Assembly (NCBI GenBank): GCA_009839585.1
Contig: VXPI01000054.1
Location: forward strand, 1 to 11,306
Length of the DNA: 11,306 bases
Reading direction: 5' to 3'
From: Gammaproteobacteria bacterium
GTDB lineage: Bacteria; Pseudomonadota; Gammaproteobacteria; Arenicellales; Poriferihabitantaceae
Position 1 is the first letter of the stretch. Every line of letters begins with the position of its first letter. The position numbers and the translations under genes were made by a program. Positions 1,584 through 7,857 of this stretch are shown in pieces. Below the pieces are notes generated by a model that saw nothing but the letters and a program-made list of their open reading frames with translations, did no database searches and had not been told where the DNA came from.

Positions 1584-3077
1584 ATGTTCAGCATTTCATT
1601 TGAAAATCAATACGTGACTCTGGGCGAAGGCTTCTTTGCCAGAACCCGACCGACACCTGTATCCGATCCAGTCCTGATTCGATTCAATCATGATCTGGCA
1701 GAGCAGATGAATCTGGATATGGGTGATGCCGCCCCGGATCAGCTGGCGCAGTGGTTTTCCGGAAATCAAGTTCCGGAGGGTGCAGAGCCATTGTCGATGG
1801 TTTATGCAGGGCATCAATTCGGATTCTACACGCCGCGACTTGGTGATGGCCGTGCCATCCTGCTTGGCGAGGTGATTGGCAAGGAGGGGCAGAATTACGA
1901 AATCCAGCTCAAGGGCTCAGGTCGGACCGTTTACTCGCGCAATGGGGATGGGCGCTCTCCACTTGGCCCAGTGCTCCGCGAATATCTGGTGAGCGAAGCC
2001 ATGTATCGCCTGGGCGTGCCAACAACCCGGGCCCTGGCCGCTGTAGCCACCGGCGATGCCGTGTATCGGGAAGAGGTCTTGCCTGGCGGCATATTGACTC
2101 GTGTCGCCAGCAGTTTCGTGCGGGTCGGAACATTTGAATATCATGCACGTCATTCGGATCAGGAGGGTGTCAAAAAACTTGCTGATTATGTAATCAGCAG
2201 AAGTTTCCCGGAGTTGTCCGATTCGGGAAATCCTTATCTCTCCTTGCTCGAAACAGTGGTTGAGCGGCATGCATGCCTGGTCGCCAAATGGATGCAGTTC
2301 GGTTTTATCCATGGCGTGATGAACACGGACAACATGTCGATAGTAGGGGAGACGATCGATTATGGACCATGTGCGTTCATGGATGGCTTTGCAATCAACA
2401 AGGTGTTCAGCTCGATTGATCAACAGGGTCGTTATGCCTATGACAATCAGCCGGGCATCGCACTTTGGAACCTGGCTCGATTTGCCGAGTGTCTGGTGCT
2501 GATTATTGATTCAGAAGTGGATGCTGCCGTTGAAGCCGTCAGGCCGGTGCTGGAGAAGTTCCAGACCCTTTATGAAAAGGCCTGGATGACGGGTATGCGG
2601 GCTAAGTGTGGTTTCATCAGGGAGGCACAGAATGCCAACCCATCGCAGAGCTTGCTTACCAAGGAACTGTTAGCCCTCATGCATGAGTGCTCTTCCGATT
2701 TTACGATCACATTCTACGAATTATCAAGACTGAGTGATCAGGCAGACAAACAGGATCATGCGTTTCTCAGGCAATTCGCTTCTAGGCAGCCGGTAGCCCG
2801 TGACTGGCTAGTGAAATGGCGCACGATCATGAGTACTCATGGAATCAAGCAGAAGCAGCGCCAATCCCAAATGCAATGCGTCAATCCGGTATATATTCCA
2901 CGCAATCACTTGATTGAAGCGGCAATCCGTAGGGCGGAAGATCATAGGGACTTCTCAGCATTCCATGAATTGCATGAAGTCTTGAAGACGCCATATGCCA
3001 AACAGAAAGGCAAACAACGATATCAATGTCCACCTGGTCCCGGGCAGGAAGTGATACAGACATTTTGTGGAACCTGA
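1584..3077 (+). CDS. selO: Protein adenylyltransferase SelO (YdiU/UPF0061)
   Basis: This 497-residue protein matches the SelO/YdiU family at full length. SelO has a pseudokinase fold that binds ATP upside-down and transfers AMP to Ser, Thr or Tyr of target proteins; in bacteria it has been linked to redox-stress responses. Motifs seen are YAGHQFG (74-80), LGDGRA (86-91), the nucleotide-binding QLKGSGRTVYSRNGDGR (108-124, with Lys110 the family lysine), REYLVSEAMYRLGVPTTRAL (132-151), and HGVMNTDNMSI with DYGPCAFMD (243-253 and 259-267). By family comparison Asp249 is the likely catalytic base and Asn250/Asp259 bind metal. The C-terminus ends in F-C-G-T, placing Cys495 as the antepenultimate residue, the position occupied by selenocysteine in vertebrate SelO. 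The start at 1584 gives the normal N-terminus but has only a weak ribosome site. It is convergent with the sterol-methyltransferase-like gene downstream. Confidence 0.95.
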   Translation: MFSISFENQYVTLGEGFFARTRPTPVSDPVLIRFNHDLAEQMNLDMGDAAPDQLAQWFSGNQVPEGAEPLSMVYAGHQFGFYTPRLGDGRAILLGEVIGKEGQNYEIQLKGSGRTVYSRNGDGRSPLGPVLREYLVSEAMYRLGVPTTRALAAVATGDAVYREEVLPGGILTRVASSFVRVGTFEYHARHSDQEGVKKLADYVISRSFPELSDSGNPYLSLLETVVERHACLVAKWMQFGFIHGVMNTDNMSIVGETIDYGPCAFMDGFAINKVFSSIDQQGRYAYDNQPGIALWNLARFAECLVLIIDSEVDAAVEAVRPVLEKFQTLYEKAWMTGMRAKCGFIREAQNANPSQSLLTKELLALMHECSSDFTITFYELSRLSDQADKQDHAFLRQFASRQPVARDWLVKWRTIMSTHGIKQKQRQSQMQCVNPVYIPRNHLIEAAIRRAEDHRDFSAFHELHEVLKTPYAKQKGKQRYQCPPGPGQEVIQTFCGT

Positions 3078-3407
3078 AAGTCAGCGATTGAAGCCTGGCA
3101 CCGGGATTGAGCCTGCACAAGGGATCCCTCCTGCACGTTGGTCCTTTCATCAGTTGATGCTTGATGCAGCACAATCCATGCTGTCCTACATCTACCTGAT
3201 TCCTGCCCCCGCTGTAATGCGGAGACAATATCACCTCGTCAGCGATTGTTCCTGGTTTCTACGATGTCCGGGTTGCCTCTGAAACCTCCGGTCCTGTTCC
3301 AGATCCGACAACCGATATGGGTGTGGCTACTTCCCTAATCCATAAATAGAGCAGTCCGTGTCAGGCGCAAAGATTCGAATAGATACGGGAACTATACCAA
3401 ATACGGT
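3078..3407. other. Intergenic region between convergent genes, no gene seen
   Basis: This 330-base stretch separates selO from the convergent methyltransferase gene. The open frames crossing it (plus 3067-3282, minus 2881-3234) resemble no family I know and have no start signals. I looked for a terminator that could serve the two convergent genes and found no stem followed by a T run. Small features present are a 10-bp palindrome AGGGATCCCT near 3120-3129, a tandem TTGATGC pair near 3154-3167, and the 11-base word GTCAGCGATTG occurring directly at 3080-3090 and 3238-3248. Confidence 0.6.
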
Positions 3408-4517
3408 TCAGCGATCGGGTTCCATTGTTTTTTGCACGACTTCGGGCTTGCGGGCCAAGAAGAAATACATCGGCGTGAAAGTGTCCGTGCGTCCTCCGGC
3501 AACAAGTGCGTCGGCACCTTTGTTCAGGAAGGTGCTGACGGCACGTGAACCCTGTGGAACCAAATGAAGCTTTTCACCAATACGCAGTGTAAGATTGGTG
3601 AGAGAGCGTCCAAGGGGCGTTCGCGGAATACTTGCGAATGTAAAATCGCGTCCCTCCAGCGCGCGGTACCAAGACATTTTCGGATCCGATTCACATGCCT
3701 GATCGTGCACTTTCAGAATCTCGAATCCGGCTTTCTTGAGAGACTCACTTACATCTGATGTACGCGGAATATCCTGCAGCCCGTTACCAAGCATGATATT
3801 TTCCTTGATCTTCCGGTGCTCACTCTTTTCGGGATCGTAAGTTTCGGTGAGACACCATTCGTAGCTGGCAAAACAGCCTCCCGGACGCAGGATGCGGAAA
3901 ACCTCACGGAACAGCTGTGTTTCGTCGGGAGCATGAACCGTGGCTGCAAAAGCGTATGCGGCATCGAACTTGTTGTCTCTTTCGGGAATATGCATAAAGT
4001 CTCCCTTGATGAAGCTGCACAGGGCGCTTACATCTTTTGTATTCTTCATGGCAATTTCGATCTGATAGCCATTATTGTTTATACCGGTGATACTGGCTCC
4101 CGTACTGCGCACGAGATTGCTCAACGGCCCGCCAACGCCACATCCAAGGTCGATAACATTCATTCCCGGTTTCAAGGACAACTGTTCAGCAAGGTAATTC
4201 TGGTGCCGATTGATGGCATCTTTCAGGGATTCACCGCGTTGACGCGGCGCAAAGTGAAAAGACTTTCCCCAACCGAACAGGTAGAAGTCGGTAACGAGAT
4301 CGTAATACTGGTTCACGAATGAGCTGTACTGCTCTTTTCTGCATTCCACGCCAGCGTCAAAGGTCGATGTATATCCGTCGACGGTAGTTTTCATCTCGCT
4401 CGGCGAAAGGCCTGATGGGAGTTCAGGTTCGGATTGGATGGTATCTACATGCTTTCGCACTGCTTCATAACCCGGTTGCCTGATAGATATATGCCCGGTT
4501 CTCGTCTGGACAAACAC
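3408..4517 (-). CDS. Sterol C-24 methyltransferase-like protein (Erg6/SMT family)
   Basis: Numbered from the furthest upstream start (GTG at 4517, 369 residues), the protein lines up with yeast Erg6 from residue about 43 to the end. Region I is YLFGWGKSFHF (79-89, Erg6 YEYGWGSSFHF), the SAM loop is DLGCGVGGP (123-131), then G-I-N-N-N-G-Y-Q-I (145-153), region III YAFAATVHAP (188-197), and SYEW (218-221). The C-terminal part (about 300-358: R-T-P-L-G-R, E-K-L, LVAGGRTDTFTPM, ARKP) matches the sterol-methyltransferase C-terminal domain, which ordinary class I methyltransferases lack. Erg6-type enzymes transfer a methyl group from SAM to C-24 of the sterol side chain; that substrate is inferred. 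No other sterol gene is visible. The start is uncertain: GTG 4517 lacks a ribosome site and overlaps the small upstream frame, GTG 4460 lies four bases after that frame's stop (350 residues), and ATG 4394 gives 328 residues. I favour 4460 or 4394. Confidence 0.85.
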   Translation of the reverse strand: MFVQTRTGHISIRQPGYEAVRKHVDTIQSEPELPSGLSPSEMKTTVDGYTSTFDAGVECRKEQYSSFVNQYYDLVTDFYLFGWGKSFHFAPRQRGESLKDAINRHQNYLAEQLSLKPGMNVIDLGCGVGGPLSNLVRSTGASITGINNNGYQIEIAMKNTKDVSALCSFIKGDFMHIPERDNKFDAAYAFAATVHAPDETQLFREVFRILRPGGCFASYEWCLTETYDPEKSEHRKIKENIMLGNGLQDIPRTSDVSESLKKAGFEILKVHDQACESDPKMSWYRALEGRDFTFASIPRTPLGRSLTNLTLRIGEKLHLVPQGSRAVSTFLNKGADALVAGGRTDTFTPMYFFLARKPEVVQKTMEPDR

Positions 4518-4590
4518 CGTCCCGTACCAGTTGCTGCACGCGGCACCTCAGTGTTGGAAGATAGACGAATTCATATTCCTCATAAGTCAT
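4465..4590 (-). CDS. Putative 41-residue small protein or leader upstream of the SMT-like gene
   Basis: The ATG at 4590 is preceded by AAGGAGG with a 7-base spacer, by far the best Shine-Dalgarno on this strand of the window. The frame encodes 41 residues, beginning MTYEEYEFVYLPTLRCRVQQ and ending Q-A-T-G-L, with no membrane segment or known domain. Its TGA (4467-4465) lies four bases before a GTG (4460) in frame with the methyltransferase, an arrangement typical of translational coupling. The frame is open upstream to an ATG at 4875, but that start lies close to the tail of a dead transposase and has no good ribosome site, so 4590 is preferred; the bases between 4591 and 4837 show nothing recognisable. 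An alternative reading is that this is the original N-terminus of the methyltransferase, detached by a one-base shift near 4465. Function unknown. Confidence 0.5.
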   Translation of the reverse strand: MTYEEYEFVYLPTLRCRVQQLVRDGVCPDENRAYIYQATGL

Positions 4591-4597
4591 TTCACGC

Positions 4598-4603
4598 CTC
4601 CTT
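4598..4603 (-). promoter_or_regulatory. Strong Shine-Dalgarno for the 41-residue frame
   Basis: On the minus strand the bases read AGGAGG (AAGGAGG with the next upstream base), followed by GCGTGAA and the ATG at 4590. This is a near-full complement to the 16S rRNA tail at optimal spacing. It decides the start of the small frame, and contrasts with the weak sites in front of the possible methyltransferase starts. Confidence 0.65.
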
Positions 4604-4837
4604 GCCCGATTTTTGAAAAGGCGGTCCAATTCACTGGTTGATGTCTCCTCGTTTCCCTTGGGGAAGTTCACATAGCGCTTGCTTGTTAATTTCCTGAATT
4701 GCCCCATGTGCGGCATAATTGCAATTTCGAAAATCGTTGTTTCCTTGAACACCGATCCGTTGACGCTCCGGCACTCCGCCTGTTTGCCGATGATATTTTC
4801 CCGCAACTTGCCCAATTGCACAACTGAGTGCGCGAGT

Positions 4838-5428
4838 TCACCATATGTGAGACATACGGGTTCGGTTACGCACATGCTTAGGGTATTCCATTGGGGTCAT
4901 GATTTCAAGTGCGTGCGAAGCGGGGCCTCACTCAGTTGCAGAAGTGCCGGCAGCCAGCGAGTGCGTGTCCGGCCTCGCGGACGCTGAGTTCCCCGGCGTC
5001 CTGGATCCGGAACTCGCTGCCGCCATCGACCTGGACCGGCTGGAGCGGGCATGGCAGGTCCTCGATGACGGCGGCCAGGAAGCGCTTCGCATTGCCGGCG
5101 GTGTCCCGGGAGAACTCCTGGGTCACCATGAACCTGCCGCTCGGGCAGGTGGTTTGGCACTGCTTGAGCGTCCTGCCGTCGCGGAGACCGTCATGTGGTC
5201 GATCTGTACTCCCCTGCCGGGTCCGGTTTCCTGGCCGTCCCGTGTCCAGCGCTGCGCATGATCGGCACGGAAGTCCCGCAAGCCCGAATTCGCCGAACTC
5301 TTCAGTGTCCTCTTCTCGACCACCAGCATCAGCACCGTTTCGAACAGCGCCGGCAGCGACCGGAACAACAGGACCGCCTCGTCAGAGCACTTGCCGGAAG
5401 TCTGGAGATTCTCGAACTCTACTTTCAG
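4838..5428 (-). pseudogene. Degenerate DDE transposase/integrase (rve-type) remnant
   Basis: Reassembled across frames on the minus strand. From 5428 an open frame (starting CTGAAAGTAGAG, possibly a decayed ATG behind AAGGAG) runs through L-P-A-L-F-E-T-V-L-M-L and S-S-A-N-S-G-L, then ADHAQRW and VQIDHMTVS, the first catalytic strand of an integrase core (Asp codon at about 5200). A one-base shift near 5181 continues it as DGRTLKQCQTTC, FMVTQEFSRDTAGNAKRF and VQVDGGSEF (second Asp near 5027). Next, roughly 45 residues expected to hold the third catalytic Glu (P-x-L-N-G-x-V-E-R in relatives) are missing, and the frame resumes at GELSVREAGHALAGCRHF, hits TGA at 4934-4932, shifts again and ends with MTPMEY and SHIW before TGA at 4838. 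The end matches the usual C-terminus of IS481/IS3-like integrases. The first 50 residues look more like the N-terminus of an IS66-type transposase, so the remnant may be a fusion of two elements. It is clearly non-functional. Confidence 0.8.
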
Positions 5429-5464
5429 ACCGGCCCAGTCTCCTTTCGATCACGGACGTGCCCA

Positions 5465-6134
5465 CTACTCGGCCTCCACCGCCATGATGGCACCCAGCAT
5501 CGCAATCCGCTCCGCCTGCGGCATTGACCGATAGCCCGAGCCCAACGCTCCGCCTTGCGTTTCACATCCTGGCGGTGATTCGGATTGTCTCCCGCATGGC
5601 GCGACCAGTGTAGCCGGTCAATCTCGAAGTTGTACCAGATCACTTCGGTAACCACTCCAGCCTGGTTCATGACCTGAAGCTCAAGACTTCGCCAGTCTGC
5701 AAGCGTCTCGTCATACAGTGCCGAAGCATAGCCCGAAAGCATTACCTGGTACGGCAACGACTTCAGGATTTTCAGCAGTGCGACATGATCCTGCTCTTTA
5801 TAGCCGTAACGGTAATGATAGCGTTCCGGGGCCTTGCGGGTGCTCTTCAGGTACGGTGGATCAACGTACCACTAGGTGTATTCCTGTTCACCTCGGACGT
5901 CGACAGGAATTCATGACAGCCGCCACGCACCAACTCGACTGGGTAGTCACAGGCAAAGTCAGCCAGGGCCTGTGCATCAAGATCGATGCCGATATTGCGC
6001 ATCGTCGGCGGCTTGCGCTTCATGATCGCGGCTCCGCCCAGATGGGTTTCCTAGTACAGTCATGGGGGCATCATGCCAGTCAATGCCTGACACAACCCAG
6101 CCGTTGCCTTGGAACCCGGATAGGCCTTGCCCAT
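5465..6134 (-). pseudogene. Degenerate D12-class N6-adenine DNA methylase
   Basis: Read on the minus strand and crossing frames, the gene begins at the ATG at 6134 with MGKAYPGSK (the family's P-G-x-K motif), then A-G-L-C-Q-A-L-T-G-M-M-P-P. A frame disruption and a TAG (6053-6051) precede ETHLGGAAIMKRKPPTMRN and IGIDLDAQALADFACDYPVE, L-V-R-G-G-C-H-E-F-L. A frameshift near 5898 and a TAG at 5874-5872 follow, then WYVDPPYLKSTRKAPERY with catalytic DPPY at 5862-5851, S-L-P-Y-Q-V-M-L-S-G-Y and VMNQAGVVTEVIWYNF. A last shift near 5525 leads into MPQAERIAMLGAIMAVEAE and TAG at 5467-5465. Intact relatives are DNA adenine methylases of about this length, common in phages and mobile regions, methylating adenine in DNA either as orphans or with a restriction enzyme. 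At least four lesions in 670 bases while flanking genes are intact argues for real decay rather than sequencing error. No restriction gene is visible next to it. Confidence 0.85.
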
Positions 6135-6266
6135 GGAAATACCCCGTTATCGATTCAATGCCGATACCATAGGCAAGTATTGCATGAATGACAAGACGGC
6201 TGTCCGGGCTTTAGGTGAGTTACAATTGAGCGGGCAAGTAGTTCCCAAAAATCATTCCAAATTCTG

Positions 6267-6447: not shown

Positions 6448-7857
6448 ATGTCGATCAAAGACGCACTGAATTTAATAAATGAAAGTGAAGCAGAGTTCGT
6501 TGACCTGCGCTTTACGGACACCAGGGGCAAGGAACAGCATGTAACCCTGCCGGCTTCCGAAGCAGGTGAAGATCTGTTCGAAGACGGTAAAATGTTTGAC
6601 GGTTCGTCAATTGCGGGGTGGAAGGGAATTAATGAATCGGACATGATCTTGATGCCCGACCCCGAAAGCGCAGTAGTCGATCCATTTTCGGACCTGAAGC
6701 AGGTCAATATCCGATGCGACATTATCGAACCGTCCGACATGCAGGGGTATGCCAGGGATCCGCGCTCGATTGCCAAGCGTGCAGAAGCCTATCTGGCCTC
6801 CACGGGAATCGGGGATACCGCGTATTTCGGCCCCGAGAATGAATTTTTCGTATTCGACTCGGTTCGCTGGGAAAACAGCATGGAACATTCGTTCTATGCA
6901 ATTGATTCGGAAGAAGGGGACTGGAGCAGTGCGAGCAAGCTGGGCGGCATGAACCTAGCCCATCGACCCAGAGTCAAGGGCGGATACTTCCCGGTTCCAC
7001 CGGTCGACAGTCTGTCTGACATGCGCGGCAGAATGTGCACCGTCATGAACGACATGGGTCTCGCTACGGAAGTCCATCACCACGAAGTGGGAACAGCAGG
7101 GCAGTGCGAAATTGGTGCCAGGTTCAATACCATGGTCAAAAAGGCCGATGAAGTGCAGATATACAAGTATGTGGTGCTCAACGTTGCCCACATGTTTGAC
7201 ATGACTGCTACCTTCATGCCCAAGCCGCTGGTTGGTGACAATGGTTCGGGAATGCATGTTCACCAGTCCATTTTCAATGGGGGCAACAACATCTTCGCTG
7301 GGGACGGCTATGGCGGCCTGAGCGACGAAGCCCTGTACTACATCGGCGGCATCTTCAAGCATGCCCGGGCGATCAATGCCTTTGCCAACGCAAGCACCAA
7401 CAGCTACAAGCGGCTGGTTCCGGGCTTTGAAGCACCGGTGCTGCTGGCCTATTCATCGAAAAACCGGTCCGCATCCTGTCGCATTCCCTTTGTTGCAAAT
7501 CCCAAGGCAAGGCGAATCGAGATTCGCTTTCCCGACTCGACAGCAAATCCGTATCTTGCGTTTGCCGCAATGTTGATGGCGGGTCTTGACGGGATCCAGA
7601 ACCGGATTGATCCGGGCAGTCCTTCCGACAAGGATCTGTATGATCTTCCTCCGGAAGAGGAAAGCAATATCCCAACCGTTGCACACGGTCTGGACATTGC
7701 CCTTGAAGCCCTGGATGCAGACCGGGACTTCCTGTTGGCCGGAGACGTCTTCAATAACGACATGATTGACGGGTACATCGAGCTCCTGATGGAAGATGTT
7801 ACCCGACTCAGGATGGCAACGCATCCGGTCGAGTTCGACATGTACTACAGCCTCTGA
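6448..7857 (+). CDS. glnA: Glutamine synthetase, type I
   Basis: The 469-residue product is the standard length for dodecameric bacterial GSI, which makes glutamine from glutamate, ammonia and ATP in the cytoplasm. Motifs include [17 protein letters not shown] near residues 51-67, the metal-binding [10 protein letters not shown] with Glu130 and Glu132, [12 protein letters not shown] from about 210, [10 protein letters not shown] (265-274), [11 protein letters not shown] near 340, and the adenylylation loop DLYDLPPEE with Tyr398. The tyrosine means activity is probably controlled by GlnE adenylylation. The start follows an AGAGG ribosome site. It is downstream of decayed mobile DNA and 97 bases upstream of hflK; ntrB/ntrC, which often follow glnA, are absent here. 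Identification is essentially certain. Confidence 0.98.

Follow-up and report, generated by a model that had tools for sequence, protein, structure and literature searches.

We find that the window, by which we mean the whole 11,306-nucleotide stretch analyzed here, carries a gene that is by descent a bacterial sterol C-24 methyltransferase (SMT) and that probably belongs to the sterol pathway of its own genome, at a locus that looks like a side-chain choice point for its genus, and whose weakened constraint and loss of the residue equivalent to yeast Glu195 probably leave C-24 methylation weak, altered, or lost. The coordinates of the features discussed are collected in Table 1.

Table 1. Features of the window that bear on the SMT gene and its locus
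Feature	Position	Strand	Remarks
selO	1584..3077	+	left flank, common to sister genomes
SMT homologue	3408..4517	-	369 codons from GTG 4517; likelier starts GTG 4460 or ATG 4394
PF08498 Sterol_MT_C domain	3441..3623	-	residues 299-359, Pfam
Codon 191 GCA (Ala) at yeast Glu195 position	3945..3947	-	alignment and model
SAM-binding glycine loop VIDLGCGVGGP (presumed, name given by us)	4125..4157	-	residues 121-131
SMT Region I YLFGWGKSFHF	4251..4283	-	residues 79-89 (yeast Tyr81-Phe91), alignment
Leu80 codon CTG at yeast Glu82 position	4278-4280	-	alignment
U486 remnant (C-terminal part of a 486-aa gene)	4465..4875	-	homology to G003 and G006
Broken reading frames	4876..6240	.	integrase- and adenine-methylase-like pieces, by eye only
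glnA	6448..7857	+	right flank, common to sister genomes; named by eye

The original prediction described an Erg6-type SMT homologue with a C-terminal SMT domain, and both parts of this description held when the profile search was run. The uninterrupted frame of 369 codons encodes a protein that matches PF08241 (66.5 bits) and, at residues 299-359, PF08498 (79.1 bits against a cut-off of 21.7; E 2.7e-22), and thus shows the architecture of the Erg6 family, in which a class I SAM methyltransferase domain is followed by PF08498 at the C-terminal end. The protein is 38% identical to yeast Erg6, for which we used a reference sequence that is a 100% match to the Saccharomyces cerevisiae entry P0242. 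PF08498 is present in all of the best 120 of 2500 database matches (E <= 1e-10), which are 57-100% identical to the window SMT, the 100% match being the window's own protein. The AlphaFold2 model has a mean pLDDT of 83.5 and a pTM of 0.83, with residues 1-34 as its sole low stretch. In PDB sequence searches, no listed match covered the far C-terminal part of the protein, and 6f5z (231 aa), which is named a 24-sterol C-methyltransferase, matched the methyltransferase part only. We conclude that the window ORF is, judged by sequence, a bacterial SMT by descent, with a predicted activity on delta-24 sterols.

The phylogeny called for by the original prediction placed the window protein among 54 SMT rows and apart from seven other methyltransferases (L008, L009, L010, L013, and L015 among them). 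The split between the two sets has support of 87/94, which we read as moderate, as the program warns of long outgroup branches; for the same reason the deep branching order is unsure. The window SMT is sister to the database protein P0003 (100/99) and then joins P0004 and P0005 (100/99), and the four fall within a cluster of 34 proteins from metagenomes and MAGs (82/89). Eukaryotes are represented by 13 rows (12 fungi and one plant) that form a separate group (95/92), which is joined by four Acidimicrobiia-type bacterial rows (92/95), so that bacterial SMTs are not one clade in this tree. Recent capture from a eukaryote was considered and ruled out, since the nearest rows are metagenomic and taken as bacterial and the eukaryotic rows lie elsewhere. 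The proposal that the gene was acquired recently beside mobile DNA likewise gave way to these metagenomic neighbors, to the P0003 sister relationship, and to an SMT fragment found in the same-genus genome G002 on the same side of selO as the window SMT. The gene is as rare in its own group as had been supposed: at E <= 1e-50, an SMT was found in one of 369 sampled genomes of the class (the window's own) and in seven of 109 genomes of the order.

The gene had also been described as standing alone and perhaps acting on host or environmental sterols, and a search for squalene epoxidase and oxidosqualene cyclase elsewhere in the genome lent neither idea support. In the window's MAG (G000; 2.42 Mb in 420 contigs, 75.6% complete), contig C313 encodes a fusion of squalene epoxidase and oxidosqualene cyclase (1182 aa), accompanied by a P450 and a reductase of the ERG4/ERG24 family, and what is left of an SdmA-like Rieske protein, its tail, lies where the contig ends; SdmB was seen in its kin only. 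The fused enzyme matches PF08491 (98.6 bits), PF13243 (190.5 bits), and TIGR01787 (508.6 bits, above the cut-off of 322.7), and falls below the cut-off of TIGR03463 (715.4 bits against 851); two of its matches that are named gammaproteobacterial are 87 and 86% identical, and these, together with a reading of the window's flanks, are the grounds for taking the organism as a gammaproteobacterium. Sister genomes have the full row of SdmB-like, SdmA-like, ERG24-type, P450, and fused cyclase genes, the SdmA and SdmB matches both lying below the NCBIfam curated cut-off. In the window's MAG the SMT and the sterol operon are on different contigs. The SMT adjoins the fused cyclase, on the opposite strand, in G005, G013, G033, G055, and G059, and lies about 12 kb from it in G041; by hand, 13 of the 120 listed SMT matches could be paired with one of the 120 listed cyclase matches through an identical length of the longest contig. 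A squalene synthase (PF00494) was detected in 11 of 11 other genomes searched and not in the 75.6% complete G000, where its absence is probably an assembly gap. Given the cyclase and partial sterol operon of this MAG, and given that SMTs of its kin adjoin that operon, the natural substrate of the SMT is most likely the cell's own delta-24 sterol. As a side observation, we noted a fusion of GPP34 (Golgi phosphoprotein 3) with a P450, about 669 aa long (L047:132-2141, L089:4972-6978, and others, with domains scanned in L047), homologues of which occur in or near the sterol gene regions of G005, G006, G013, G033, G041, G055, and G059 and, in several genomes, beside LolA-like and MMPL transporter genes; we found no related literature on this fusion.

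We aligned the window SMT with 119 matches from a search with the window protein (its own entry, P0002, being dropped), 120 matches from a search with Erg6, mostly fungal, and 13 locus copies, some of them near-identical to each other. The original prediction held that the SMT signature regions were shared with yeast with one substitution. The frame of Region I, the limits of which were taken from PMC5711494, is kept (YLFGWGKSFHF against the family sequence YEYGWGSSFHF), whereas two acidic positions rather than one differ, and Phe190 is a further change. The position of yeast Glu82, which is Leu80 in the window, is Glu in 116/119 window-search matches, 120/120 Erg6-search matches, and 9/13 locus copies; Leu was found in the window, P0003, P0004, and P0005, and the copy G055a also departs from Glu. 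In the stretch after beta-4 the window reads FAATVHAP and yeast IEATCHAP, so that Glu195 is replaced by Ala191 and Ile194 by Phe190. The Glu195 position is Glu in 117/119 window-search matches, 120/120 Erg6-search matches, and 13/13 locus copies, which amounts to 250 Glu, two Asp (P0003 and P0084), and no Ala among the 252 other sequences; Ala occurs in the window alone, and P0004 and P0005, which share Leu80, keep Glu191. Residue 191 is the first after strand 184-190 in the AlphaFold2 model, and alignments place a Glu at the equivalent position in 3bus and 8zc8, two non-sterol methyltransferases of known structure. The loss of these two acidic positions, Glu82 to Leu and Glu195 to Ala, is new here.

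Details on acidic-residue mutants of SMTs are reportedly to be found in work by Nes from 2002 and 2004. One review mentions mutants of conserved acidic residues that were suspected of a part in the deprotonation (PMC10968281), and docking of the Naegleria SMT lists Glu190 among the ligand contacts, next to the SAM-site residue Ile189 (PMC9457665); we infer that these two residues correspond to yeast Glu195 and Ile194. The literature searched contained neither an effect of Glu195 mutation in yeast nor a demonstration that Glu195 is required, and the Ala191 protein offers a chance to test the role of this residue in SMTs. Separately, G013, G041, and G055 have a second, distant SMT-like clade (L052:8126-9235, L053:7716-8756, and L051:6346-7383), 39-42% identical to the window SMT, with Glu at the 195 position and none at the 82 position; the G013 contig with this gene also carries a squalene synthase and a GPP34-P450 homologue.

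The window SMT also appears to have diverged under relaxed constraint. Because 47 of 47 residues of the SMT fragment in G002 equal those of P0003, a record that comes with no DNA, P0003 is presumably the SMT of the G002 species and can stand for it. Between G000 and G002, the proteins of the sterol operon show 89.1-89.5% identity, compared with 79.8% between the window SMT and P0003. The ratio of SMT to cyclase distance for this pair, 2.04, is the maximum of 209 non-independent pairs (median 0.93, 95% quantile 1.20) from 21 genomes or contigs, with the near-identical pair G033-G059 left out; relative to the cyclase, the window SMT diverged about twice as fast as in other pairs. Over the 47 shared SMT codons, dN/dS is 0.385, compared with 0.128, 0.152, and 0.125 for three operon genes (Fisher p 0.009 on rounded counts), a test that is weak by itself, since 14 of 379 overlapping 47-codon segments of the operon genes reach a pN of 0.12 and the SMT piece has 0.114. 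At 76 universal columns the window departs at six, and 116 mainstream matches depart at a mean of 0.53 and a maximum of four; the count is seven in P0003, four each in P0004, P0005, and G005, and eight each in G041a and G055a, which are intact copies in order relatives, so that the departure count taken alone is not exceptional. Some constraint remains, given the intact frame and a dN/dS below 1. We dropped the idea that the SMT piece of G002 is a clear pseudogene, because this piece is cut off by the end of its contig and P0003 is full-length with the same 47 residues.

The locus itself lies between selO and glnA, and its flanks, with their order unchanged and at 74-88% DNA identity, are shared with the same-genus G002, G003, and G006. 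A 486-aa gene, referred to here as U486 (L088:6687-8147 in G003 and L115:7292-8731 in G006; no Pfam or NCBIfam match), is complete in G003 and almost complete in G006, and in both genomes adjoins a gene resembling DHCR24. The window keeps a remnant of U486, which matches the full-length gene over 116 aa at 72% identity (window 4477-4824). Because the annotated SMT codons 1-18 overlap the 3' end of this remnant, and because the window matches the DNA of G003, a genome without an SMT, as far as ~4448 and no further, GTG 4517 is probably not the start, and GTG 4460 or ATG 4394 is likelier. The broken reading frames beyond the remnant occupy the place that the rest of U486 and the DHCR24-like gene have in G003. 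None of five frames of broken DNA near the SMT passed a Pfam cut-off (one sub-threshold match, E 0.036), so the label of mobile DNA is one given by eye; positions 5790-6116 match DNA upstream of glnA in G002 at 71%, and the broken stretch shows no trace of DHCR24 or of U486 beyond the known tail (best E 2.3 and 0.41). On the other side of the SMT, the MMPL transporter gene that adjoins selO in G002 and G006 is absent at window 3078-3407, the gap between selO and the SMT being about 330 bases, and in G003 a transposase gene lies between selO and the MMPL transporter gene. G003 further has fragments of a second MMPL gene and a second DHCR24-like gene (L088:6047-6452 and L117:4032-4386), which are signs of locus turnover.

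We next consider how the SMT and the DHCR24-like gene are distributed. Nineteen genomes were chosen for the search, and 11 have the cyclase. A full SMT occurs in seven of these (G000, G005, G013, G033, G041, G055, and G059), and G002 has the fragment; in the remaining three, G003, G004 (only 80% complete), and G006, no SMT was found at E <= 1e-30. These three have a close DHCR24-like gene, so that the 11 cyclase genomes divide into eight with an SMT and three with the DHCR24-like gene, and none has both. The G003 gene, which lies within the interval from selO to glnA and there between glnA and U486, encodes a 519-aa FAD_binding_4 protein that is 44% identical (214/487) to a sequence that we take to be human DHCR24, with a score of 1050 against at most 54 in 100 shuffles. 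We conclude that the resemblance of this protein to DHCR24 extends beyond the FAD_binding_4 domain, and a reductase activity is predicted for it. Close matches to it are present in G006 (81%, 518 aa), where it again has U486 as its neighbor, on a different contig, and in G004 (two pieces in different frames, one of 82% over 418 aa and the other of 64% over 76 aa), and none was found in the other 16 genomes; as a separate point, the G004 gene (L116:997-2450) is split over two frames, being either broken or wrongly assembled. In the window's MAG, no DHCR24-like match was found at E <= 1e-10, which at 75.6% completeness could be a gap. Matches of 25-28% to the reductase, scoring 370-403 against the DHCR24 sequence used above, occur in G019, G046, and G051, which are without a cyclase, and in G033, G041, G055, and G059, which have cyclase and SMT; these could be reductases of some kind too.

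Since the window keeps the U486 tail, its ancestor probably had U486 at this locus, and perhaps the reductase too. The split between SMT and DHCR24-like gene may be one event in one clade, as G003, G004, and G006 are close kin. With this proviso, the selO-glnA locus looks like a side-chain choice point in the genus, and the reciprocity of SMT and DHCR24-like gene is new here; at the level of titles and openings of abstracts we found no earlier report of such an exchange or of a Glu-less SMT, which is weak evidence of absence. A tentative extension is that an ancestor had SMT and DHCR24 side by side, that the sister species each lost one of them, and that the window species, whose SMT is Glu-less and in which no reductase was found, would be left with delta-24 sterols.

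In the pathway that we favor, the fused enzyme would epoxidize and cyclize squalene to a delta-24 sterol, the nucleus of which the P450, the ERG24-type reductase, and the SdmA/SdmB-type proteins would trim. The SMT would then use SAM to methylate the side-chain double bond at C-24, and in other species the DHCR24-like enzyme would saturate that same bond, the species of the genus keeping either one or the other at the selO-glnA locus. In the window lineage, constraint on the SMT appears weakened and the Glu195 equivalent is gone from this copy, with weak, altered, or lost C-24 methylation as the likely effect; we regard present SMT activity as doubtful.

A harsher reading, which we hold to be a real possibility though short of an even chance, is that the gene is on its way out, with a non-working enzyme whose frame is open by chance after a recent loss of need. 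This would fit G003 and G006, which have the sterol operon and contiguous sequence across the place without an SMT match at the threshold given above, and G002, which keeps ~47 SMT codons at a contig end followed by unrelated sequence, as well as the raised SMT divergence and the remnant state of the neighboring U486; it sits less well with ~350 open codons, with a model of which residues 1-34 alone are low, and with a full-length P0003 in what is probably the sister species, and the break in G002 may be an assembly fault. Alternatively, the SMT may work fully and have a changed product, Leu80 and Ala191 reshaping the pocket at the C-24/C-25 cation so that another olefin or further methylation results. 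Leu80 is evidently tolerated, since P0003, P0004, and P0005, which are 72-80% identical to the window protein, have it as well; the reading frame is open throughout; and changes in Region I reportedly alter the product range of the yeast enzyme (PMC5711494, PMC6255433). However, Glu or Asp at the Glu195 position in 252/252 other sequences and Glu in the non-sterol 3bus and 8zc8 point to a general role for this residue, and we consider a fully working enzyme rather unlikely.

Two further readings carry little weight. SMT-bearing bacteria have been reported from sponges (PMC9531527, PMC10070321), which would suit an SMT that works on sterols from a host or the environment, but the cyclase and part of the nucleus-trimming operon in the same MAG, and the position of kin SMTs beside that operon, make this improbable. 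Still more remote is contamination or a chimeric contig: the MAG is in 420 contigs, but the flanks are collinear with those of three genomes of the same genus, the U486 remnant next to the SMT has its homologue at the corresponding position in G003, and the GC3 of the SMT (0.547) lies within the range of four neighbor genes (0.524-0.634).

Steranes from C28 to C30 are interpreted as fossil traces of eukaryotes or sponges, an interpretation that is weakened by the existence of bacterial SMTs. A genus with a constant sterol operon and a changing side-chain enzyme is a natural experiment, in which a cyclase, or even a gene annotated as an SMT, need not predict alkylated sterols. If the tentative extension given above, with an ancestor that had both genes, is true, the sterols of a single bacterial genus would alternate between side chains alkylated at C-24 and plain ones, and C27/C28 ratios would not follow lineage.

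An SMT in sterol-gene-bearing gammaproteobacteria is already a known kind, as reports on metagenomic SMTs and on clusters from Ircinia and Melophlus symbionts make clear, and the window copy adds a case. The notion that bacterial SMTs are nearly a blank does not fit Brown et al. (2023), who count 7966 SMT homologues in metagenomes and tested 24, of which 8/10 from symbionts and 12/14 from the environment were active, and who suggest host or environmental sterol use for a Chlamydiae SMT (PMC10070321). Their SMTs have the same domain architecture as the window protein, 13 of the 24 tested come with an oxidosqualene cyclase homologue, and some lie in clusters with sdmA/sdmB (PMC10070321); the window copy differs from the conserved pattern in being without both acids. 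In symbiont MAGs of Ircinia, steroid clusters from 10 phyla, Gammaproteobacteria included, have a row of ERG24, CYP51, and LSS that is followed at its 3' end by SMT1/ERG6 or FDFT1 in the opposite orientation, and in the account of these clusters we saw neither a loss of the SMT nor a partner locus with DHCR24 nor the Glu substitution described (PMC9531527). By its description, the msb cluster of a gammaproteobacterium that lives in symbiosis with the sponge Melophlus has the same gene set, namely an NAD(P)-dependent oxidoreductase, a Rieske protein, a sterol reductase, a C-14 (C30) demethylase, a fused squalene epoxidase-cyclase, and the sterol methyltransferase msbF (PMC7074536); in the window's MAG, by contrast, the SMT is on another contig than the operon. 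Relative to yeast Erg6, the window SMT has the likeness of 38% identity, the Region I frame, the SAM loop, and the C-terminal domain, and differs in Leu for Glu82, Phe for Ile194, and Ala for Glu195. Finally, bacterial C-24 sterol reductases comprise a canonical enzyme of Enhygromyxa salina and the different Bsr (PMC12004948), and DHCR24 homologues have been tabulated (PMC4919349); what sets the 519-aa DHCR24-like protein of the window's genus relatives apart from these is that it replaces the SMT within one genus.
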